A stretch of DNA of 53,415 nt from contig JABDDN010000010.1 of NCBI GenBank assembly GCA_013287585.1, positions 1 through 53,415 of the forward strand, written 5' to 3'. This DNA is from Nitrososphaerota archaeon (GTDB lineage: Archaea; Thermoproteota; Nitrososphaeria; Nitrososphaerales; Nitrosopumilaceae). The notes beneath the pieces were generated by a model. That model did not search any database and was not told where the DNA came from. It saw only the letters and a program-made list of their open reading frames with translations. The position numbers and the translations under genes are program-made. Positions 1,891-13,920 of this stretch are shown here, piece after piece; the stretch's first letter is position 1; the number at the start of each line of letters is the position of its first letter.

Positions 1891-2946
1891 CTAAGGTATA
1901 GTTGGCAAGTTTTTCTCACCAAGAACTTCATTGAGAAGCGTCAGATCATATATGTTGGATAGGTCTGGTTTTGTATCTCCTAGAAAACCTAACTCAAATG
2001 CATCGTTAGCAGATTTGTAAAGGGATTCTTTTATAGGATCATATGTTATTTCAAGTCTAGAAAATGCATTTTGGAGTTCATCAGCAGGGATTGTCTTACC
2101 TGTAAGTTTTTCTAATTGTGCATTGAATACTTGTACAGCTTGATCTTTATTGTTATTTATCCAAGTAGTTTCATTAACATGCGCTTCTAATAGTTTCTTT
2201 ATAACATCTGGATGGTTTTTCAGGTAATCAGTCCTAACTACTATTTGCGATGTTACAAATTTTCCATTTGGCCATATATCTCTCTCATCGACCAAAATTT
2301 TTCCATTTGCTTCTTTGATGAGTTTTGCTCCCCATGGTTCTGGTACCCATGCTCCATCAATACTCTTCTTTAAAAAGAGTGTCACAATATCAGGATTATT
2401 TGCAGGTATTACTGTCACATTACCACCATTTTCTGTAGTTTTGTATCCATTTTTTAGTAAATAGCTCCGTAATGCTACATCCTGTGTATTTCCAAGTTGA
2501 GGAGACGCAAACTTTTTACCAGCAAAATCAGCAGCTGAATTTATTCCAGCATCATTTCTAACCACAAAAACTGCACCCCCACTTGCTGCACCTGAAATGA
2601 TTCGTAAACCATTTCCATCAGATTTTATATATCCATTGATTGCAGGATTTGAGCCAACGTATGTGACATCAATCCTATCTGCAAATAATGCTTCAATTGC
2701 AGATGGACCGGCATTGAAGACTTGGGTTTCTATTTTAACATCTCCAAGTTCTTTTTGAAAGTCGTCATTTCCAAGACCTATGACTGCTTGTGCATGATTT
2801 ATGTTTGGAAAATATCCAATTCTTAAAACATTAACAGAGCTATCGGTATTATGAGAAAGTTGATTCCCTGAATTTACATTAAAAGAAAGGACAATTACAA
2901 GTGCAATAATTATTCCTGCAATTCCAAATTTAATTTTAGGAGTCAT
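1891..2946 (-). CDS. ABC transporter substrate-binding protein (SsuA/TauA/NrtA-like)
   Basis: The solute receptor of an ABC importer for an anionic or sulfonate-type compound. 351 residues: an N-terminal hydrophobic anchor (about residues 8-25, no lipobox Cys), then a periplasmic-binding-protein type 2 fold of the NMT1/SsuA family, recognisable from LRIGYFPNINHAQAV, FNAGPSAIEALFADRIDVTYVG and DGAWVPEPWGAKL. It is the third gene of a reverse-strand operon behind the permease (18-base gap) and ATPase. The substrate cannot be read from sequence; this family covers nitrate, taurine, alkanesulfonates and thiamine precursors. Confidence 0.88.
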   Translation of the reverse strand: MTPKIKFGIAGIIIALVIVLSFNVNSGNQLSHNTDSSVNVLRIGYFPNINHAQAVIGLGNDDFQKELGDVKIETQVFNAGPSAIEALFADRIDVTYVGSNPAINGYIKSDGNGLRIISGAASGGAVFVVRNDAGINSAADFAGKKFASPQLGNTQDVALRSYLLKNGYKTTENGGNVTVIPANNPDIVTLFLKKSIDGAWVPEPWGAKLIKEANGKILVDERDIWPNGKFVTSQIVVRTDYLKNHPDVIKKLLEAHVNETTWINNNKDQAVQVFNAQLEKLTGKTIPADELQNAFSRLEITYDPIKESLYKSANDAFELGFLGDTKPDLSNIYDLTLLNEVLGEKNLPTIP

Positions 2947-2964
2947 TTGTAATACCTATTACCC

Positions 2965-3768
2965 CTAACGATGGTGATCCAGTCCCCATTTTTTTCTCAC
3001 TCGCTCATCTAGTTTAAACAACAAGAGTCTGTCAACTAACAATCCAATTGCAAATATAGTAATCATGCTTGCAATTACCTGACCCATATCAAGAAAGTCT
3101 CTTCCAACAGATAAAATGTGACCCAATCCAACAATCGACATCAGTATCTCTGCACCAATGATAGCATGCCATGCAAATGACCAAGCTTGTCTGATGCCAA
3201 TGATTAATGAAGGCGTAGCAGCTGGTATGGTAACATGTCTGAACAAGTAAAATCCTTTAGCACCCATGTTTTTTGCTGCATCAAGATAGATTGGCGGTAT
3301 GTTTCTGATGCTACTATATGTTGAAATCATTATTGAAAAAATTGAACTCATGACAACTACAAACAAAATTCCAAAGTCATTGAAACCAATCAATAGAATA
3401 GAGAAAGGCACCCATGCAATACTTGGAAATGACAAAAGACCAGCAGAAAATGAACTTAGTGTCTTTCCAAATCCCTTAAATTTAATCATGGCAAGTCCTA
3501 TGAGGGTACCAAGAGCTATGGAAACAGCAAATGCCGTTACAAGCCTGGCCAAAGTCACACCTATACTCACAGGTAGGGAATGATTCCAAATTATCTTGAC
3601 AAATGATTCTGCAACCATCAATGGTGAAGGCAATGAGATTTTGGGCCATATGCCAAGCATGAACACTATTTGCCATATACCAACAAACACTGCAAGAAAT
3701 AGTGCTGCATTAGCAGCATCATCAAAACTTCCATGTGAAGTTTTCTTTAAGATTATTTTTTCATTCAT
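2965..3768 (-). CDS. ABC transporter permease (SsuC/TauC-like)
   Basis: The membrane subunit of the same importer. 267 residues with about six hydrophobic helices and the BPD_transp_1 EAA loop seen as AAKNMGAKGFYLFRHVTIPAATP, the contact point for the ATPase. Length and loop are typical of SsuC/TauC/NrtB permeases. Its ATG overlaps the stop of the upstream ATPase gene by four bases (ATGA), indicating translational coupling. Confidence 0.9.
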   Translation of the reverse strand: MNEKIILKKTSHGSFDDAANAALFLAVFVGIWQIVFMLGIWPKISLPSPLMVAESFVKIIWNHSLPVSIGVTLARLVTAFAVSIALGTLIGLAMIKFKGFGKTLSSFSAGLLSFPSIAWVPFSILLIGFNDFGILFVVVMSSIFSIMISTYSSIRNIPPIYLDAAKNMGAKGFYLFRHVTIPAATPSLIIGIRQAWSFAWHAIIGAEILMSIVGLGHILSVGRDFLDMGQVIASMITIFAIGLLVDRLLLFKLDERVRKKWGLDHHR

Positions 3769-4541
3769 AGATTCTCATCTTTTATATGTGCCATTACCTC
3801 ACTCTTTAATTCTTCAAGAATTTGATGATAGTATTTTTGAAGATTTTCATCCTCAGCAAGTCTAGGTCGTCTATAATCAATTACAAATTCTTTTTTAATT
3901 TTAGACGGTCTATTTTTGAATACAACAACTCGATTTCCTAAAATTACTGACTCTGAAATATTATGTGTAACAAAAATAATTGTCTTTTTTGTTCTCTCCC
4001 AAATTAATTGCAATTCTACCAACAACAAATCTCTTGTTTGAGAATCTAGTGCCGCAAATGGTTCATCCATCAAAAGAATTTCTGGATCCATAGCAAGAGC
4101 TCTTGCAATTGCAACTCTTTGTTTCATTCCTGTAGATAACTGATAAGTATACGAGTCTGTAAACTTGGCCAGTTGCATCATGTCCAAGTATCGTTCTGAA
4201 ATTTGTCGTCGCTCGTCTTTTGGGATACCAGCCATTTTTAATCCAAACTCTACATTATCAATTACCTTAAGCCATGGAAATAACGCGCCTTCTTGAAAAA
4301 CCATTGTTCTATCAGGACCGGGAGTTGTGATCAGATTTCCATTAAGTAAAATTTCACCAGAATCAGGTTTTTCAAGTCCAGCTACAATATTCAAAAACGT
4401 TGATTTGCCACATCCAGAAGGACCTACAATGCATATGAAATCACCTTCTTCCACATTCAGATTAATTCCATCTAAGGCAAGAATCGAGTTACCATTATGA
4501 TCAAAATGTTTTACAATATTTTTTGCCTGCAGTTTAGTCAT
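3765..4541 (-). CDS. ABC transporter ATPase (SsuB/TauB-like)
   Basis: The energising subunit: Walker A (GPSGCGKST), Q-loop (MVFQEGALFPW), Walker B (ILLMDEPFAALD) and switch His (FVTHN) are all present. The signature is STGMKQRV rather than LSGGQ-type; Met is common in the SsuB/TauB group. I choose the ATG at 4541, giving 258 residues, because a good Shine-Dalgarno (AGGAGG at 4551-4556) lies eight bases upstream and the alternative start 12 codons earlier adds only basic residues. First gene of the transporter operon. Confidence 0.9.
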   Translation of the reverse strand: MTKLQAKNIVKHFDHNGNSILALDGINLNVEEGDFICIVGPSGCGKSTFLNIVAGLEKPDSGEILLNGNLITTPGPDRTMVFQEGALFPWLKVIDNVEFGLKMAGIPKDERRQISERYLDMMQLAKFTDSYTYQLSTGMKQRVAIARALAMDPEILLMDEPFAALDSQTRDLLLVELQLIWERTKKTIIFVTHNISESVILGNRVVVFKNRPSKIKKEFVIDYRRPRLAEDENLQKYYHQILEELKSEVMAHIKDENL

Positions 4542-4550
4542 GAAAAATCG

Positions 4551-4556
4551 CCTCCT
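4551..4556 (-). promoter_or_regulatory. Shine-Dalgarno site of the ABC ATPase gene
   Basis: Read on the reverse strand this is AGGAGG, about eight bases before the ATG at 4541. It decides between two in-frame starts and implies a leadered transcript, unlike many genes here. Confidence 0.65.
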
Positions 4557-4614
4557 TTTGTATCTTATAGATAGCATACACTAGAAATGTCATATTCCAT
4601 GCGATCAATTTCAT

Positions 4615-5981: not shown

Positions 5982-6149
5982 ATGAATTGTCCAGAATGCG
6001 ATGCAATGTTAAAAATTCCAGATGATGCAAGTGTTGGAGAAATAGTTTCATGTCCTGACTGCGGAGCAGATTTTGAGATAGCCTCAAAAAATGGCACCAC
6101 TTGTCAACTCAAACACGCTGAAAAAGTCGGCGAAGATTGGGGAGAATAA
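5982..6149 (+). CDS. lysW: LysW/ArgW amino-group carrier protein (first copy)
   Basis: A 55-residue carrier whose C-terminal Glu side chain is ligated to the amino group of glutamate (or aminoadipate), protecting it while it is converted to ornithine (or lysine). A zinc ribbon is formed by C3, C6, C24 and C27, followed by an acidic patch and the hallmark terminus EDWGE. C41 is an extra cysteine. The stop codon directly abuts the ATG of the ATP-grasp ligase gene that loads it. Next to argG and argC/B/D, so arginine synthesis is its likely main role. Confidence 0.93.
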   Translation: MNCPECDAMLKIPDDASVGEIVSCPDCGADFEIASKNGTTCQLKHAEKVGEDWGE

Positions 6150-7007
6150 ATGTCAAAGATTCGTATCGTTTACGATCGAGTCAGAACAGAGGAGAAAATG
6201 CTCGAGGAAAAAGCAATCGAGCTTGGTCACGATACAAAGATGATTGATGCCAAAGTAACTCAGGTAAGTACTGAAAGTAAAAAAAATGATTTTGATTTTG
6301 GGGATGTAGTATTGGAAAGATGCGTAAGCTATTTCCGAGGTCTGCATTTCACTGCATGTTTAGAATTTCTTGACGTGCCAGTCATAAACAAGTATGAAGT
6401 TGCAAACAACTGTGGCAACAAGATGATAACATCGCTTTTGTTAAAAAAACACAATGTACCTACTCCAAAAACATATTTTTCATTCTCACCTGAAGCTGCA
6501 CTTGAGAATCTAGAAAAAGTAGGATATCCATTAGTTATCAAACCCATAGTAGGAAGCTGGGGCAGAGGTGTCATACCTCTCAAGGACCGAGAAACTGCAG
6601 ATGCGATAATCGAAGTAAGAGAACTAAGTGATGGACCACTAGACAGAATCTACTACCTTCAAGAAATGATAAAAAGACCTCCAAGAGATATTCGTGTTAT
6701 TGTAGTAGGAGATCAAGTCATTTCTGCAATGTATAGAACTTCGTCTGGTGGTTTTAAGACGAACATTGCTCTTGGTGCAGAACCAATTTTGTGTGAGATA
6801 ACAAAAGAGTTAGAGGATGTTTGTATGAAGGCATCAAAAGCAGTAGGTGGAGGAATATTGGGAGTAGATGTAATGGAAGATGAAAAGCGAGGACTAGTTG
6901 TACATGAAGTAAACAACACTGTAGAGTTCAAAGGGCTATCAAAAGTTTCAAAAAAGAATATTCCAAAAGAAATGATTGATTTTGCAATCAAGCAAGCTAT
7001 AAAATAA
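6150..7007 (+). CDS. argX: LysX-family ATP-grasp ligase, probably glutamate-LysW ligase ArgX
   Basis: RimK-like ATP-grasp enzyme of 285 residues that ligates an amino acid to the LysW C-terminus. KPIVGSWGRGV is the ATP-grasp glycine-rich loop, RPPRDIRV the middle strand, and VHEVNNTVEF carries the metal-binding Glu/Asn near the C-terminus. Set between lysW and argC in the argG operon, it is best read as the glutamate-specific ArgX; the second copy at 11950 follows homocitrate synthase. This split is inferred from context and from the differing C-terminal motif (EFKGLSKVS here, EYKNTVRVTG there). Confidence 0.88.
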   Translation: MSKIRIVYDRVRTEEKMLEEKAIELGHDTKMIDAKVTQVSTESKKNDFDFGDVVLERCVSYFRGLHFTACLEFLDVPVINKYEVANNCGNKMITSLLLKKHNVPTPKTYFSFSPEAALENLEKVGYPLVIKPIVGSWGRGVIPLKDRETADAIIEVRELSDGPLDRIYYLQEMIKRPPRDIRVIVVGDQVISAMYRTSSGGFKTNIALGAEPILCEITKELEDVCMKASKAVGGGILGVDVMEDEKRGLVVHEVNNTVEFKGLSKVSKKNIPKEMIDFAIKQAIK

Positions 7008-7037: not shown

Positions 7038-8090
7038 ATGAAAGTAGGAGTTATCGGCGCATCAGGTTTTGTGGGAGGAGAAATGCTCAGATTACTTGTA
7101 AGTCATCCCAAAGTGGAGATCTCCATGGTAACATCAAGACAATATGTAGGAGAATATGTTTCAAGGATTCAACCAAGCTTGAAAGGGTTTACCGATATTA
7201 CATTTTCCGAATTAGACTATGATAAATTATCAGACAAGTGCGATCTTGTTTTTACTGCAGTACCGCATGGAACAGCAACTGAGATAGTAAAAGCGTTGTA
7301 TGATCGTGGAATGAAAATAATTGATCTAAGTGCAGATTATCGTCTTCACAATGCCCCAGATTATGACAAGTGGTATGGTTGGCAACATCCTTACCCAGAA
7401 TTATTGTCAAAATCAGTTTTTGGCGTTCCAGAAATTCACAGAGAACAAATTAAAAAATCACAACTTGTTTCTTGTCCTGGATGTATGGCAGTAACTTCAA
7501 TACTTGCGTTATATCCACTAGTGAAAAAAAACCTAATTGATACAGAACACATCATTGTTGATTCAAAAATTGGTTCATCTGGTGCAGGTGCAGGTTCTTT
7601 AGCTGGTACCCATCATGCTTTAAGATCAGGAGTAATTAGGCCATACAAGCCTGCAAAGCATAGACATACTGGTGAAATAGAACAGGAATTAACTGAGGTT
7701 GCAGGGAAAAAGATTCATGTTTCTATGAGTCCACATGCAGTAGATATTGTACGGGGAATATTGTGTACAAATCACACTTTCCTTAACAACCCAATGAGTG
7801 AGATGGACATTTGGAAGTTATATCGTGAACAATATGGTAATGAAAAATTTATCAGATTAATTCGTGATAAAAAAGGATTTTACAAGTTTCCTGATCCAAA
7901 GTTTGTAGTGGGATCCAATTTCTGTGATGTAGGATTTGATATAGATGAGGACAATCATAGATTAGTTGTATTGTCAGCATCAGATAATTTGATGAAAGGA
8001 GCAGCTGGTTCTGCCATACAAAACATGAATGTAATGGCGGGTTTTGATGAGATGGAAGGCCTCAGATATTCTCCGTTAACACCTGTGTGA
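7038..8090 (+). CDS. argC: N-acetyl-gamma-glutamyl-phosphate reductase / LysW-acyl phosphate reductase (ArgC/LysY)
   Basis: Reduces LysW-bound gamma-glutamyl phosphate (and the aminoadipyl analogue) to the semialdehyde with NADPH. 350 residues: N-terminal dinucleotide fold GASGFVGGEMLRLL, catalytic Cys in SCPGCMAVTS, and GSSGAGAG plus the conserved His in KPAKHRHTGEIEQEL. Third enzyme of the carrier pathway, in order after the ligase; the downstream kinase gene starts five bases after its stop. With only one copy visible, it probably serves both arginine and lysine. Confidence 0.93.
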   Translation: MKVGVIGASGFVGGEMLRLLVSHPKVEISMVTSRQYVGEYVSRIQPSLKGFTDITFSELDYDKLSDKCDLVFTAVPHGTATEIVKALYDRGMKIIDLSADYRLHNAPDYDKWYGWQHPYPELLSKSVFGVPEIHREQIKKSQLVSCPGCMAVTSILALYPLVKKNLIDTEHIIVDSKIGSSGAGAGSLAGTHHALRSGVIRPYKPAKHRHTGEIEQELTEVAGKKIHVSMSPHAVDIVRGILCTNHTFLNNPMSEMDIWKLYREQYGNEKFIRLIRDKKGFYKFPDPKFVVGSNFCDVGFDIDEDNHRLVVLSASDNLMKGAAGSAIQNMNVMAGFDEMEGLRYSPLTPV

Positions 8091-8094
8091 GAAA

Positions 8095-8895
8095 ATGATT
8101 ACAATCAAGATCGGAGGAAGCGTAGTAGATGGGCTTCATCCGTCAACTATTGCTGATCTAAAAAAAGTTTCAGAACAAGAAAAAGTAATCCTGGTACATG
8201 GTGGAGGAAAAGAGGTAACAAAGATTTCAGAAGCACTAGGAAAAGAACAAAAATTCATTGTTTCTCCCGGTGGAATAAAAAGCAGGTTTACTGATAAGGA
8301 AACCATAGAGATCTTCACTATGGTAATGTCTGGAAAAATAAACAAAATGATAGTAGGAATGCTACAAAAAAATGGTATCAATGCAGTCGGACTGTCAGGT
8401 GTAGATGGCAGAATTATCCAGGCTGAACGCAAAAAAAAATTGATAATAATTAATGAAAAGGGCCGCAAGATGGCAATAGATGGAGGCTATACTGGAAAGA
8501 TAAAGGACGTAAATTCAAGTCTGATAAAATCAATTCTAGACCAAGGCTACGTTCCGGTCATATCACCAATTGCAATAAGTGAAGAATCTGATTTTCTTAA
8601 TGTCGATGGAGACAGAGCTGCAGCATATGTGGCAGGTAAGATGCAGTCTGACACGATATTGTTTTTGACTAATGTGGACGGTTTACTGATGGATGAAAAG
8701 CTTGTAAAGAAACTTTCTTTAGTTGAGGCAAAGGAAATTCTTCCAAAAATAGGCTTTGGTATGGAAAAAAAGATACTTGCTGCAACAGAATCTCTTGAGA
8801 TGGGAGTAAAACAAGCTCTTATCGCAAGCGGTCAACGAGAAAATCCTATATCAGCTGCCATTGCGCATGACAACTGTACGGTGATTACAAAATGA
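8095..8895 (+). CDS. argB: LysW-aminoadipate/LysW-glutamate kinase (LysZ/ArgB)
   Basis: Phosphorylates the side-chain carboxylate of the LysW-bound amino acid. Amino-acid kinase fold, 266 residues: KIGGSVV at the N-terminus, VHGGGKEVT, NVDGDRAAAYVAG and LTNVDGLL. Stop and start overlap by four bases with the aminotransferase gene (ATGA at 8892-8895), indicating coupling. The family has both acetylglutamate and LysW types; the lysW operon makes the latter likely. Confidence 0.92.
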   Translation: MITIKIGGSVVDGLHPSTIADLKKVSEQEKVILVHGGGKEVTKISEALGKEQKFIVSPGGIKSRFTDKETIEIFTMVMSGKINKMIVGMLQKNGINAVGLSGVDGRIIQAERKKKLIIINEKGRKMAIDGGYTGKIKDVNSSLIKSILDQGYVPVISPIAISEESDFLNVDGDRAAAYVAGKMQSDTILFLTNVDGLLMDEKLVKKLSLVEAKEILPKIGFGMEKKILAATESLEMGVKQALIASGQRENPISAAIAHDNCTVITK

Positions 8896-10067
8896 CTGAA
8901 GATCAATTCATGGGAAATATCTATCAGAGATTTCCTGTTACAATAGAACGCGGCCTTGGTTCACATGTGTGGGATACTAGCGGAAAAGAGTACATTGATT
9001 GTATGGGAGGATATGGTGTTGCTCTTGTTGGTCACTGCAATCCACGTGTTGTAAAGGCCATCAAAGAACAACTTGATAAAATAATCACAGTACACAGTTC
9101 ACTTTACAACAAAACACGTGAACGATTCTTAGAGACTTTGATTAAGATATCTCCAAAGAATCTGAATCAAGTTTACCTAAACAACAGTGGAACTGAGGCA
9201 GTAGAAGCAGCAATGAAATTTGCAAGAAAATTCACTGGTAAAACAGGAATGGTAGCAATGAATGGCTCATACCATGGAAAAACATTTGGATCTCTTTCAA
9301 TAACATTTAGTCAAAAATACAGAAAACCGTTTGAACCACTAGTAGAAAAAGTTTCATTCTCTCCATTTGGAGATATAGAAGCTTTAAGATCTACAATAAA
9401 TTCCGATACTGCATTTGTCATAATGGAACCAATACAGGGAGAAAGTGGAATCCATGTTGCGCCAGATGGATTCTTACAGGATGTTAGAAAATTATGTAAT
9501 GAAAAAAATATTCTTTTGATCTTCGATGAAATTCAGGCTGGACTTGGTAGAACTGGCAAGATGTGGGCAGGCCAACACTGGGATACTACTCCAGACATCA
9601 TGTGCCTAGCAAAGGGAATTGCCGGAGGAATCCCCATGGGAGCTACACTTGTACGAGAAGACATTCTCGCGTGTATAAGTAAAGGCGAACAATCATCTAC
9701 TTTTGGAGGAAATCCTATCTCATGTGCAGCTGGTATTGCTTCAATTGAAGCTTTGACACAAGATGGATTAGTTGAAAATGCGGTAAAAATGGGAAAATTA
9801 TTCCGAGAAGGATTAGAAAGACTAAAGGAAAAACACAAAATAATCAGAGAAATTAGAGGCAAGGGTTTGATGATTGGAGTAGAAATGAAATTTGAGGTAA
9901 AAGATATTTTGTTTGATGGAATAGCAAACAACCTTTTACTTTTATATTCTGGAAAGAACATATTACGATTACTACCACCGCTTGTCATTTCTGAATCAGA
10001 TATAACCAAAGCTTTAGAAACATTAGATGTTATATTAGGAAAAGAGGAAAAAAGAAGAAATGTCTAA
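8892..10067 (+). CDS. argD: LysW-semialdehyde aminotransferase (LysJ/ArgD)
   Basis: PLP-dependent class III aminotransferase, 391 residues, converting the LysW-bound semialdehyde to the amine using glutamate as donor. Diagnostic stretches are NNSGTEAVEAAMK, EPIQGESG, IFDEIQAGLGRTG and the PLP lysine in CLAKGIAGGIPMGA, followed by STFGGNP. Probably bifunctional for ornithine and lysine. Overlaps the regulator gene downstream by eight bases. Confidence 0.93.
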   Translation: MTEDQFMGNIYQRFPVTIERGLGSHVWDTSGKEYIDCMGGYGVALVGHCNPRVVKAIKEQLDKIITVHSSLYNKTRERFLETLIKISPKNLNQVYLNNSGTEAVEAAMKFARKFTGKTGMVAMNGSYHGKTFGSLSITFSQKYRKPFEPLVEKVSFSPFGDIEALRSTINSDTAFVIMEPIQGESGIHVAPDGFLQDVRKLCNEKNILLIFDEIQAGLGRTGKMWAGQHWDTTPDIMCLAKGIAGGIPMGATLVREDILACISKGEQSSTFGGNPISCAAGIASIEALTQDGLVENAVKMGKLFREGLERLKEKHKIIREIRGKGLMIGVEMKFEVKDILFDGIANNLLLLYSGKNILRLLPPLVISESDITKALETLDVILGKEEKRRNV

Positions 10068-10479
10068 AGATAAAACAGATGATTCAATCATTGAAATATT
10101 AAAAAAAGATTCTAGAGAATCTTTTGTAGTAATTGGACAAAAGCTAGGTCTTTCTGAATCTGCAGTAAGAAGAAGAGTAAAAAATCTTACTGATGGAGGA
10201 ATCATAAAAAAATTCACAGTAGAAACAGGAGATGCAAACGCAACGAGCGCAATCATTTTGATTTCTGTGGATTCTGCAACTGATACATCTAAAGTTTCAG
10301 CAAAATTAACAAAGCTACAAGGTGTTCACACTGTTTATGAAATTACTGGACAGTATGATATTGCAGTTATAATCAGAGCACCTACCATTACAGACATCAA
10401 TGTGTGCATAGATTCTTTACGCAAAGTTCCTGGTGTGTTTGATACCAACACAGTCATCATATTACGTACTGTAACCTAA
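10060..10479 (+). CDS. Lrp/AsnC-family regulator, LysM-like
   Basis: 139 residues: N-terminal winged helix (LGLSESAVRRRVKNLTDGGII, about residues 28-48) and C-terminal RAM ligand-binding beta-alpha-beta fold (about 65-139, with ITGQYDIAVII). It closes the arginine/carrier operon. In Sulfolobus the Lrp-like LysM controls lysWXJK in response to lysine, so this protein may sense lysine or arginine and act on the operon at 10597, whose promoter carries a palindrome. Confidence 0.88.
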   Translation: MSKDKTDDSIIEILKKDSRESFVVIGQKLGLSESAVRRRVKNLTDGGIIKKFTVETGDANATSAIILISVDSATDTSKVSAKLTKLQGVHTVYEITGQYDIAVIIRAPTITDINVCIDSLRKVPGVFDTNTVIILRTVT

Positions 10480-10596: not shown

Positions 10597-11787
10597 ATGG
10601 ATGATCCGAATTACTACGCATACAAATATAATGAAATTGGAGTAAAACCAAAGAAAATTCATGTCCTAGATAGCACTCTAAGAGAAGGAGAACAACATCC
10701 AGGAGTTACATTTTCAAACAAACAACGAATCCAAATTGCATGGATGCTTGATTATTTTGGTGTTGATCAAATTGAAATTTCTCCAGTTGTATCAAGCGAT
10801 CATAAAGAAGCAACAAAAACAATAATCAAACAAGGATTAAGAGCAGATATTGTAGCACATGTACGCGCCTTGAAGGAAGATGTCGATATAGCTCTTGATT
10901 GCGATGCAACTTGGATGGCCACATATCTTGGAATGTCAGATATACATCTAAAGGATAAATTAAGAATAACTAGAGAGGAGGCATTACGCAGAGCAGTTGA
11001 TACTGTAGAATATGCAAAATCACATGGACTTAAGATGAGATTTACAATGGAAGATGCCAGTAGAGCAGAGCCCGCATTTTTGATAAAGATGTGTAAGGCA
11101 ATTGAAGAAGTTGGCGTTGATAGAATAAGCATTCCAGACACAGTAGGAATAATGCGTCCAAATGGAATGTATAATCTAGTAAAAACAGTTCGTGATCAAA
11201 TAAAAATACCGTTGGATGTACACTGTCACAATGATATTGGATTAGCATTAGCAAATGCATTTGCTGGTTGTGATGCCGGAGCAGATCAAATTCACACTAC
11301 AATAGATGGAATTGGGGAAAGAACTGGAATTCCAGCATTAGCAGAAACTGCAATTTCATTATCTTATCTTTACAAATCTCCAAACAGTTTCAGATTGGAC
11401 ATGTTAATGGATCTCTCAAGACTAATCGAACAATATACTACTATCAGACCATATGATTCCAAGCCAATTGTTGGGGCTACTGCCTACAAACACAAAGCAG
11501 GAACTCACTTGGCAGCAATTCTTAGAAATCCTGCTGCGTACGAGCCAATTGACCCCAAAGTAGTAGGAAATAGGAGAAGAATAGTATTTGGAGAATTGGC
11601 AGGTAAAAACGGTGCAGCATACCTAATGTCACTTTTAGGTTTAGAACAAAATGATGAACACGCCAAAGCTGTCGCAGCTGGTCTTAAGAACTTGCGAATG
11701 GGAGACCTGCTTGAAATTCCACTAGATGACAGACTGGAAAGAAAGATAATTAATGACACCCAAGGAAAGGTAAAAACAGGAAAATAA
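10597..11787 (+). CDS. Homocitrate synthase (isopropylmalate/homocitrate synthase family)
   Basis: Condenses 2-oxoglutarate with acetyl-CoA, the first step of the aminoadipate route to lysine. 396 residues, TIM-barrel DRE family: LDSTLREGEQHPGVTF (metal-binding Asp and Arg), HCHNDIGLA (metal His pair), GIGERTG and HKAGTHLAAI. There is no large C-terminal LeuA regulatory domain, consistent with homocitrate synthase rather than isopropylmalate synthase. It opens the operon with the second lysW, lysX and lysK. Citramalate or isopropylmalate specificity cannot be excluded by eye. Confidence 0.82.
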   Translation: MDDPNYYAYKYNEIGVKPKKIHVLDSTLREGEQHPGVTFSNKQRIQIAWMLDYFGVDQIEISPVVSSDHKEATKTIIKQGLRADIVAHVRALKEDVDIALDCDATWMATYLGMSDIHLKDKLRITREEALRRAVDTVEYAKSHGLKMRFTMEDASRAEPAFLIKMCKAIEEVGVDRISIPDTVGIMRPNGMYNLVKTVRDQIKIPLDVHCHNDIGLALANAFAGCDAGADQIHTTIDGIGERTGIPALAETAISLSYLYKSPNSFRLDMLMDLSRLIEQYTTIRPYDSKPIVGATAYKHKAGTHLAAILRNPAAYEPIDPKVVGNRRRIVFGELAGKNGAAYLMSLLGLEQNDEHAKAVAAGLKNLRMGDLLEIPLDDRLERKIINDTQGKVKTGK

Positions 11788-11788
11788 T

Positions 11789-11953
11789 ATGAAATGTTTA
11801 GAATGTGATGCAAACATCTCCCCTCCAAAAGATGCAATGGAAGGAGAAATAATAACATGCCCAGATTGTGGCTCAAGCTTTGAACTCGTAAAAGGATCTA
11901 CCGGCTTTGAGTTGAAACCAGCACAAACTGTTGGTGAGGACTGGGGCCAGTGA
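11789..11953 (+). CDS. lysW: LysW carrier protein, second copy, with C-terminal Gln
   Basis: 54 residues; the ATG follows the homocitrate synthase stop by one base. Zinc-ribbon cysteines C3, C6, C24 and C27 are present, and the terminus is GEDWGQ. The family hallmark is EDWGE, in which the side-chain carboxylate of the final Glu takes the amide bond to the amino acid. Here the codon is CAG (Gln) directly before TGA, so that carboxylate is absent as encoded. The stop overlaps the GTG start of lysX (11950). It is a functional carrier using another chemistry, a decayed copy, or a base error (GAG to CAG). Confidence 0.88.
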   Translation: MKCLECDANISPPKDAMEGEIITCPDCGSSFELVKGSTGFELKPAQTVGEDWGQ

Positions 11954-12798
11954 GTTCAGGTTTATCGATTCTTTACGACACCATCCGGTGGGAAGAAAAA
12001 GCGCTCTTTGATGAAGGCAAGAAAAAAGGCATCGACATAAAGATGGTGGACTGCAAGAATTTATTTTTAGATTTAGACAAAGGAAAAGATAATTTCGATA
12101 CAGTATTACAAAGATGTGTTAGTTACTATCGTAGTCTTCACTCAACAGCAGCACTAGAAGGAAAAGGGGTAAATGTGATAAATTCTTTAAACACCAGCAT
12201 CTTTGCCGGAAACAAATTGTTCACACATATGCTTTTGCAAAAACAAAACATACCAACACCATTTAGCGCAGTTGCCTTTTCTGAAGAAGCTGCATTAGAA
12301 GCTCTAGAAAAGAATGGTTACCCAATGGTGCTCAAACCAACTGTAGGCAGTTGGGGAAGAATGATTGCACTGTTAAAGGATCGCGATTCTGCTGAAGGAA
12401 TAATGGAGAGCCGAGAGAGGATGTACCCAATTTACCAAGTATATTATTTAGAAGAATTTGTACAAAGACCGCCTAGAGACATCAGAGCGATCACAATAGG
12501 AGACAAGGTAGTTGCAGCCATATATCGATACTCTGGAGATGGACAATGGAAAACAAATATGGCACTTGGCGGAAGAGCCGAAGTGTGCGAGGTGACAAAA
12601 GAATTGGAAGATATTTGTATCAAGGCAAAAAATGCTGTATATGGTCAGATAGTAGGGGTAGATCTAATGGAAAGTAAAGAAAAAGGCCTTGTTGTACATG
12701 AAGTAAACAACACAACAGAATACAAAAATACCGTCAGAGTTACTGGTGTAGATATTCCAGCAATGATGATAGATTACGCACTACAGTCGAGAAAATAA
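11950..12798 (+). CDS. lysX: LysX-family ATP-grasp ligase, probably aminoadipate-LysW ligase
   Basis: 282 residues starting at a GTG that overlaps the lysW stop. Same architecture as the copy at 6150: KPTVGSWGRM, RPPRDIRAIT and VHEVNNTTEYKNT followed by VTGVDIP. As I recall it, this last motif resembles Thermus LysX more than the first copy does. Position between homocitrate synthase and lysK supports aminoadipate as substrate. Its own lysW ends in Gln, so it may instead load the EDWGE carrier from the neighbouring operon. Confidence 0.88.
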   Translation: MSSGLSILYDTIRWEEKALFDEGKKKGIDIKMVDCKNLFLDLDKGKDNFDTVLQRCVSYYRSLHSTAALEGKGVNVINSLNTSIFAGNKLFTHMLLQKQNIPTPFSAVAFSEEAALEALEKNGYPMVLKPTVGSWGRMIALLKDRDSAEGIMESRERMYPIYQVYYLEEFVQRPPRDIRAITIGDKVVAAIYRYSGDGQWKTNMALGGRAEVCEVTKELEDICIKAKNAVYGQIVGVDLMESKEKGLVVHEVNNTTEYKNTVRVTGVDIPAMMIDYALQSRK

Positions 12799-12801
12799 GA
12801 A

Positions 12802-13920
12802 TTGGACTCTTCAATTACAGTAACACCAAGGTTTTCAGTAAAGATGCTTGAGAAAGCGCTTAGGCTTTACACTCCTTCACTTGCAGAAAAACCTCTTGCA
12901 GAATTTTTAGCAGACAAGTGTGATGATTTGGGATTTGAAAACATTCACATCGATGAGGTTGGAAATCTTATTGCAACAAAAGGAGCTGGCTCTCCAAAAA
13001 TTCTTTTGTGTGGGCATATGGATACAGTGCCAGGTAAAATAAAAGTAAAAAATGACAACGGGTACATTTACGGACGCGGAGCTTCTGATGCAAAGGCTCC
13101 ACTTATGGCAATGCTTCTTGCCGCAGCTTCAATTCAAAACAATAGTGGAACTGTAGTATTTGCTGCAGTAGTAGATGAAGAAGGAAATGCAACAGGAATC
13201 AAAAGTTTGGTTAAACAAAAACTCGATATTGATTATGCCATTTTTGGTGAACCAAGCGGAATTAGAAATATAACAATAGCATACAAGGGGAGAATTGCTA
13301 TTAATCTCAAAGTAAATGTAGGAAATAGTGCACATGCTAGCGCTCCTTGGCTTGCAAAAAATGCAATAGACGAGTCATATGTGTTCATTAAAGAACTCAA
13401 AGATGCACTAGAGGCAAACCAATCTGATAAACCAAAGGGTATGATCCTAACTGCTACTTTAACTGAGATAAAGGGAGGAACTAGTCACAATGTAACAGCA
13501 CTAGAATGTGATGCAATAATGGACATCAGGATTCCAGTAAACATGAACTGCAAAACAGTTGGAGAAAAAATAGCAACTACAGTACAAGAGGTTGCAAAAA
13601 AACAAGGAGTTAATGCATTTTATTCTGTACTTGATGAAACAGAACCATTTGAGGCACCACATAATTCTCCACTTGTAAGGGCATTAACTTTGGGAGTACT
13701 AGATGTTGAAAAAGCAAGGCCTCAGTTAATTCGAAAAACTGGAACTGGTGATATGAACATAATTGGAAATGCATTGAATATACCTGTTGTTACATATGGT
13801 CCAGGAGATCCACATGCATCTCACACCATTGACGAACGGGTTTCCGTAGATGAATTTCTTAGAAGCATTGAAGTTTTCAAGCAAATGCTTTATCATCTAA
13901 AAAGACTACATGGTAAATAA
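12802..13920 (+). CDS. lysK: LysW-lysine/ornithine hydrolase (LysK, M20 peptidase)
   Basis: Zinc-dependent M20 amidohydrolase of 372 residues that releases lysine or ornithine from LysW. CGHMDTVPG holds the first zinc His and Asp, GRGASDAKAP the bridging Asp, FAAVVDEEGN the catalytic and zinc Glu residues, and GPGDPHASHTIDE the last zinc His. TTG start, three bases after lysX. It completes the carrier cycle for both amino acids; no other deacylase is in the window. Confidence 0.92.
   Translation: MDSSITVTPRFSVKMLEKALRLYTPSLAEKPLAEFLADKCDDLGFENIHIDEVGNLIATKGAGSPKILLCGHMDTVPGKIKVKNDNGYIYGRGASDAKAPLMAMLLAAASIQNNSGTVVFAAVVDEEGNATGIKSLVKQKLDIDYAIFGEPSGIRNITIAYKGRIAINLKVNVGNSAHASAPWLAKNAIDESYVFIKELKDALEANQSDKPKGMILTATLTEIKGGTSHNVTALECDAIMDIRIPVNMNCKTVGEKIATTVQEVAKKQGVNAFYSVLDETEPFEAPHNSPLVRALTLGVLDVEKARPQLIRKTGTGDMNIIGNALNIPVVTYGPGDPHASHTIDERVSVDEFLRSIEVFKQMLYHLKRLHGK

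Follow-up and report, generated by a model that had tools for sequence, protein, structure and literature searches.

The chemistry of the LysW system centres on the C-terminal Glu of LysW, where the precursors of lysine and arginine are held during synthesis. In Natrinema ArgW this residue, Glu54, is essential, and its replacement by Ala abolishes arginine synthesis (PMC10433800). In the window, by which we mean the whole 53,415-nucleotide stretch of archaeal DNA analysed here, a lysW gene flanked by homocitrate synthase, lysX and lysK encodes Gln at the same position. This raises the question of whether a carrier ending in Gln is functional and, if so, how its last residue could accept a substrate.

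A LysW homologue ending in glutamine

The lysine-side lysW gene (11789–11953) translates to MKCLECDANISPPKDAMEGEIITCPDCGSSFELVKGSTGFELKPAQTVGEDWGQ, 54 residues followed by a stop. Its last codons, GGC CAG TGA, give the end ...VGEDWGQ, and the zinc-ribbon cysteines are all present (4/4) as two CxxC pairs. Translation confirms the preliminary description of this gene as an EDWGQ-ended LysW with intact zinc cysteines, and of the copy at 5982 as ending in EDWGE. The EDWGQ protein scores 81.5 bits against the archaeal LysW model NF041070 (cut-off 75; model positions 3–57 of 57) and 43.6 bits against PF21344, the Pfam LysW zinc-ribbon domain (cut-off 27). The lysW equivalog TIGR01206 (cut-off 53.2 bits) does not return the EDWGQ copy at E ≤ 1e-5 and gives the EDWGE copy only 41.9 bits; because both lie below its cut-off, this mostly bacterial-type model fits neither LysW of the window.

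The genomic context is that of the LysW/ArgW class, with a linked LysX, shared LysY, LysZ and LysJ, and LysK. The LysW/AmCP carriers of Thermus thermophilus, Sulfolobus, Thermococcus and Natrinema (PDB 3vpb, 3wwl, 5k2m) share with the present protein the zinc ribbon, the acidic tail, the EDWG motif, the linked LysX and LysK, and the pathway. The difference lies in the final, substrate-bearing residue: Glu is the last residue in all three solved LysW structures, whereas the CAG codon at 11948–11950 encodes no free γ-carboxylate. As encoded, the EDWGQ protein thus departs from canonical LysW: it is a homologue whose attachment residue has changed.

The operon runs in the order argG (4783), lysW-EDWGE, argX, lysY, lysZ, lysJ, an Lrp-like regulator gene, homocitrate synthase, lysW-EDWGQ, lysX and lysK (Table 1). 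Upstream of argG, at 1891–4577 on the minus strand, lies an ABC transporter set (periplasmic binding protein, permease and ATPase) that on reading resembles the nitrate/sulfonate/taurine type.

Table 1. Lysine and arginine biosynthesis features of the window
Feature	Position	Strand	Evidence or remark
lysW/argW (arginine side), C-terminus EDWGE	5982..6149	+	
argX-type ATP-grasp ligase	6150..7007	+	groups with ArgX-type rows in tree
lysY/argC reductase, common to both branches	7038..8090	+	
lysZ/argB kinase, common to both branches; sole copy detected in genome assembly	8095..8895	+	
lysJ/argD aminotransferase, common to both branches	8892..10067	+	
Lrp/AsnC-like regulator, LysM-like by position and sequence	10060..10479	+	read from sequence; kept in operon of relatives
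homocitrate synthase-like gene	10597..11787	+	TIGR02146 381.5 bits, slightly below curated 413.55
lysW (lysine side), zinc-ribbon amino-group carrier ending EDWGQ	11789..11953	+	translation; NF041070; PF21344
CAG codon, C-terminal Gln replacing substrate-bearing Glu	11948..11950	+	80/80 named orthologues; first base unchanged in 109 sequences
lysX, AAA-type ATP-grasp ligase, GSWGR motif intact	11950..12798	+	GTG start overlaps lysW TGA stop
lysK, M20 [LysW]-amino-acid hydrolase; candidate LysW deamidase	12802..13920	+	

Conservation and recurrence of the glutamine end

A genome scan of named public genomes found EDWGQ at every orthologous locus (80/80), including those of Candidatus Nitrosotalea devanaterra (LN890280.1) and many Nitrosopumilus, and Gln is likewise present at the orthologous lysW of four out of four genomes from the same genus. 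The neighbouring ammonia-oxidiser family f3 has EDWGE at the corresponding locus. In 109 family-f1 sequences, pre-selected for VGEDWGQ ends (other ends were absent from the f1 locus in the orthologue survey), the C-terminal tail of LysW is fully conserved; on the tree, the first base of the Gln codon requires 0 changes and the third base of the preceding Gly codon 20. The fourfold sites of the adjacent lysX, for which Glu ends were also admitted and the identical 109 sequences returned, change on average 25 times per site (49 sites). About 4 of these changes per site are between C and G, a lower bound counted on rows bearing C or G only, and 1 of the 49 sites has none. Because the first base is invariant while neighbouring silent sites change some 25 times each, we conclude that the Gln end is kept by purifying selection and not by drift. 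The preliminary description held that the gene is not a random relic and named Glu at all orthologous loci as the outcome that would speak against its reading; the first point is borne out, and the alignment gave the reverse of the second.

Several simpler accounts were considered and rejected. Conservation of the Gln end rejects a sequencing error or a pseudogene, and neutral toggling between Glu and Gln inside family f1 does not fit the absence of first-base changes beside fast silent sites. The overlap of lysW and lysX does not force the Gln: a C-to-G change in this codon would restore Glu and leave the GTG start of lysX intact, and Gln also precedes TAA or TAG stops where there is no overlap.

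Selection on the codon also bears on mistranslation as the source of a usable carrier. Gln-tRNA(Gln) is generally made indirectly in archaea, through Glu-tRNA(Gln), and a small fraction of LysW might receive Glu at the Gln codon by this route. A recycled, catalytic carrier could function in small amounts. Glu-tRNA(Gln) is, however, normally kept out of translation, and misincorporation offers no advantage of Gln over Glu that would explain the purifying selection seen. We regard this explanation as extremely improbable.

Gln ends recur in other families, of which f2 is labelled Nitrosocaldaceae-like and f8 Nitrososphaeraceae-like from their relatives and gene content. In f2, genus g23 has a lysine-side Gln followed by TAA or TAG without overlap. 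The pattern varies by genus among the 70 genomes of f8: Gln is found on both LysW copies in g41, g51, g62, g63 and g65, on the arginine side with a lysine-side Glu in g53 and g57, on the lysine side with an arginine-side Glu in g44, and on the only LysW of g29. Both copies end in Gln in genus g15 of f1 (G018 and G035), and the other families sampled from the same order (f3–f7, f9–f17) have Glu ends only. Across the phylum, 398 genomes were scanned, and genuine EDWGQ LysW proteins appeared in f25, f30, f48 and f51 as well, each adjoined by LysX. When each of 114 LysX/ArgX proteins is assigned the terminal residue of its LysW, the tree requires at least 8 switches between Glu and Gln, and branches with strong support force 5 of these. 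Gln in place of the reactive Glu is a real, conserved feature in ammonia-oxidising and some other archaea; neither its occurrence on the arginine side nor its recurrence across the phylum had been foreseen in the preliminary description.

Ammonia oxidation is rejected as a rule for the Gln end: AmoA-positive f3 and G079 have Glu at the loci seen, and the AmoA-negative families f25, f30, f48 and f51 carry Gln. Some pattern matches in the phylum (e.g. L212–L215 and L263) were also set aside, as there is no LysW at these loci and the matches are probably due to chance. In the Gln-ended LysW proteins of f25 and f30 (L243–L246) the second zinc pair is HxxC instead of CxxC, which resembles the Sulfolobus tokodaii LysW of 3vpb. 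The Nitrosocaldaceae-like genome G086 has two near-identical Gln-ended lysW–lysX loci on separate contigs (L169 and L170), a duplication or an assembly artefact.

Sole carriers and partner enzymes

Profile search detected only one LysW in each of three closed genomes (G043, G074 and G081), and it ends in EDWGQ. Their operons (L301, L302 and L303) read argG-argX-lysY-lysZ-lysJ-lysM-homocitrate synthase-lysW-lysX-lysK, the arginine-side lysW being missing. ArgJ was not found in these three genomes; ArgX and LysX must therefore both use the single carrier, provided that ornithine is made by the organisms themselves. Each has a LysA-like protein that scores below the family cut-off, and a diaminopimelate route to lysine is unlikely in them. 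The closed genomes G113 and G087 have two LysW copies, both Gln-ended, and closed G277 and G380 have one each, also ending in Gln. In G026 the lysine-side LysW has been lost and the sole recognisable LysW ends in Glu, with LysX, LysZ, LysJ and LysK retained. Apparently the whole job can be done by a Gln-ended carrier alone, as the sole-carrier genomes G043, G074 and G081 and those with two Gln ends indicate, and likewise by a Glu-ended carrier alone. Covalent loading of the Gln-ended carrier with α-aminoadipate or glutamate is predicted, with indirect support from the sole-carrier genomes.

These genomes address the suggestion that in the window lineage the Gln copy is a decoy, a regulator or an inert partner, with the EDWGE copy carrying both substrates. 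An EDWGE copy is present in the window genome, and G026 has kept only its Glu copy along with the pathway enzymes. Relatives with a Gln-ended sole carrier or with two Gln ends exclude such a role in their own case, if not strictly in the window species, and the conserved LysW tail also argues against it; we find it highly doubtful for the window lineage. As general readings, two roles offered in the preliminary description fail. Neither a decoy or regulator nor loss of the role to the EDWGE copy fits G043, G074 and G081, where ArgX and LysX accompany a Gln-ended sole LysW, or G113, G087, G018 and G035, where both copies end in Gln.

We observed several local rearrangements at these loci. In G043, G074 and G081, argX is left without a carrier of its own, and the operon holds the single Gln-ended lysW. 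In G026, a 3.2-Mb ammonia oxidiser, homocitrate synthase bears a GC-rich Ala/Arg/Gly repeat tail (L300, G026:C1:1771500-1779500, about 4090–4320, minus strand) that occupies the exact site of lysW, between homocitrate synthase and lysX. In G005 (L173) and G018 (L176; see also L304 and L305) the arginine-side copy of lysW no longer adjoins argG-argX; it has moved elsewhere in the genome and is an orphan, with no adjacent ligase found.

ATP-grasp enzymes of the LysX/ArgX kind activate carboxylates. The side chain of Gln offers no carboxylate; either residue 54 must acquire one or the α-carboxylate must serve. The LysX/ArgX enzymes paired with Gln-ended carriers keep the GSWGR motif (133–137), which recognises the LysW tail (PMC10433800), at 99–100%. 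They also retain K89, K129, R179, R193, N203, D238, E251 and N253, which are invariant in the enzymes paired with Glu-ended carriers. An inactive LysX partner is rejected, as the catalytic residues and GSWGR are intact. LysZ is single-copy in 18/18 genomes, including those with one Glu-ended and one Gln-ended carrier, and each of 17 genomes has one LysK above the curated cut-off. The M20-type residues of LysK (H72, D74, D96, E126, E127, E150 and H341) are kept in essentially all lineages. Since one LysZ and one LysK handle both carriers, the same linkage, γ-Glu, is favoured on both. Columns covarying with Gln or Glu in LysX, LysK, LysZ, LysY and LysJ were only phylogenetically confounded ones, and no LysK residue clearly separates Gln from Glu lineages beyond phylogeny.

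Attachment to the C-terminal α-carboxylate of Gln, with the side-chain amide merely a recognition element, would use the only carboxylate that residue 54 has as encoded. PEARL-type pathways extend the C-terminus of a carrier peptide. These pathways have been compared with AmCPs (PMC9303977). Against this arrangement, a single LysZ and LysK, with one linked LysY and LysJ, must process Glu- and Gln-ended carriers alike, and the site residues of LysX/ArgX are unchanged. The LysW proteins of Thermus, Sulfolobus and Natrinema use the γ-carboxylate, and in Natrinema the E54A replacement abolishes function (PMC10433800). The α-carboxylate, put forward in the preliminary description, is disfavoured by the shared LysZ and LysK of genomes with both carriers, and we consider its use quite improbable.

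A proposed maturation and its parallel in Pup

We propose, with a probability of about 0.55, that the EDWGQ LysW is a functional, selected variant whose Gln-ended proform undergoes a single deamidation to Glu, most likely by LysK. LysW would be translated as an amidated proform, whose γ-carboxamide LysX and ArgX could not activate, and the terminal Gln would be hydrolysed once to γ-Glu before any loading. The ordinary cycle would follow: LysX would load α-aminoadipate, LysZ, LysY and LysJ would convert the substrate, and LysK would release lysine and regenerate the Glu carboxylate. The need for a deamidase suggested in the preliminary description is supported in this sense, and a measurable maturation reaction is predicted.

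LysK is the leading candidate deamidase, as it already binds LysW and cuts a γ-glutamyl amide at its last residue. The [LysW]-lysine hydrolase LysK (PDB 5xoy) hydrolyses this bond, and its homologue lies directly downstream of lysX here. LysK normally hydrolyses the amide between LysW and lysine or ornithine, and a primary amide, as in Gln, is the smallest bond of this type, which favours this enzyme; the open-access literature yielded no report of LysK acting on a primary amide. We infer both the deamidation itself and LysK as its agent. The lack of a Gln-specific LysK residue means that the sequences point to LysK in no specific way and that a separate, unlinked amidase is possible.

A dedicated amidase of this kind would account for the limitation of EDWGQ to certain lineages. 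Among order-level relatives, Gln was seen only in f1, f2 and f8, families that include ammonia oxidisers, and not in f4–f7 and f9–f17, and LysK is present in Gln and Glu genomes alike, without a Gln-specific signature. However, Gln also occurs in the AmoA-negative families, and no conserved extra operon gene was seen in a survey aimed at known pathway genes only. We consider a separate amidase rather unlikely. If LysK is the agent, its mere tolerance of the amide does not explain why Gln is conserved instead of drifting back to Glu. Possible selective reasons are that the amide blocks use of the carrier before LysK is present, or that it shields the end from other glutamate ligases.

Ammonia oxidisers are among the most abundant archaea on Earth, and the Gln end across them implies that their lysine pathway, and in some the arginine pathway too, either includes an activation step so far unrecognised or links the substrate differently. 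Genome annotation and metabolic models take for granted a reactive Glu, which these genomes do not encode at this position. For Nitrosopumilus maritimus, a metabolic model assigns LysW-mediated arginine and lysine synthesis, in passages that leave the end residue unmentioned (PMC6038301). A search of the open-access literature, with subscription journals outside its scope, found no paper containing 'EDWGQ' and no discussion of LysW deamidation. The only LysW paper naming deamidation is a modification-site survey whose LysW passage concerns another matter.

The proposed maturation resembles that of Pup, a small protein that some species encode with a C-terminal Gln and others with Glu, the Glu form being required for ligation (PMC8599861). 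In actinobacteria, Dop cleaves the isopeptide bonds of Pup and also deamidates PupQ to PupE (PMC8599861); by analogy, LysK may likewise be an isopeptide-cleaving enzyme that doubles as a deamidase. It is possible, and we suggest it tentatively, that archaea independently evolved a Pup/Dop-like maturation in which an amide-capped LysW is licensed by the product-releasing LysK, tying activation to a complete pathway. LysW would then show the PupQ/PupE pattern for a second time, in an unrelated protein. The two systems differ in fold and in use, LysW being a metabolic carrier and Pup a degradation tag. The Pup-side ligase is glutamine-synthetase-like, whereas LysX is an ATP-grasp enzyme, and LysK is an M20 metallohydrolase. 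In place of the Pup fold and its C-terminal Gly-Gly-Gln/Glu, the present protein has a zinc ribbon ending in Trp-Gly-Gln, and the likeness is confined to the Gln/Glu end.
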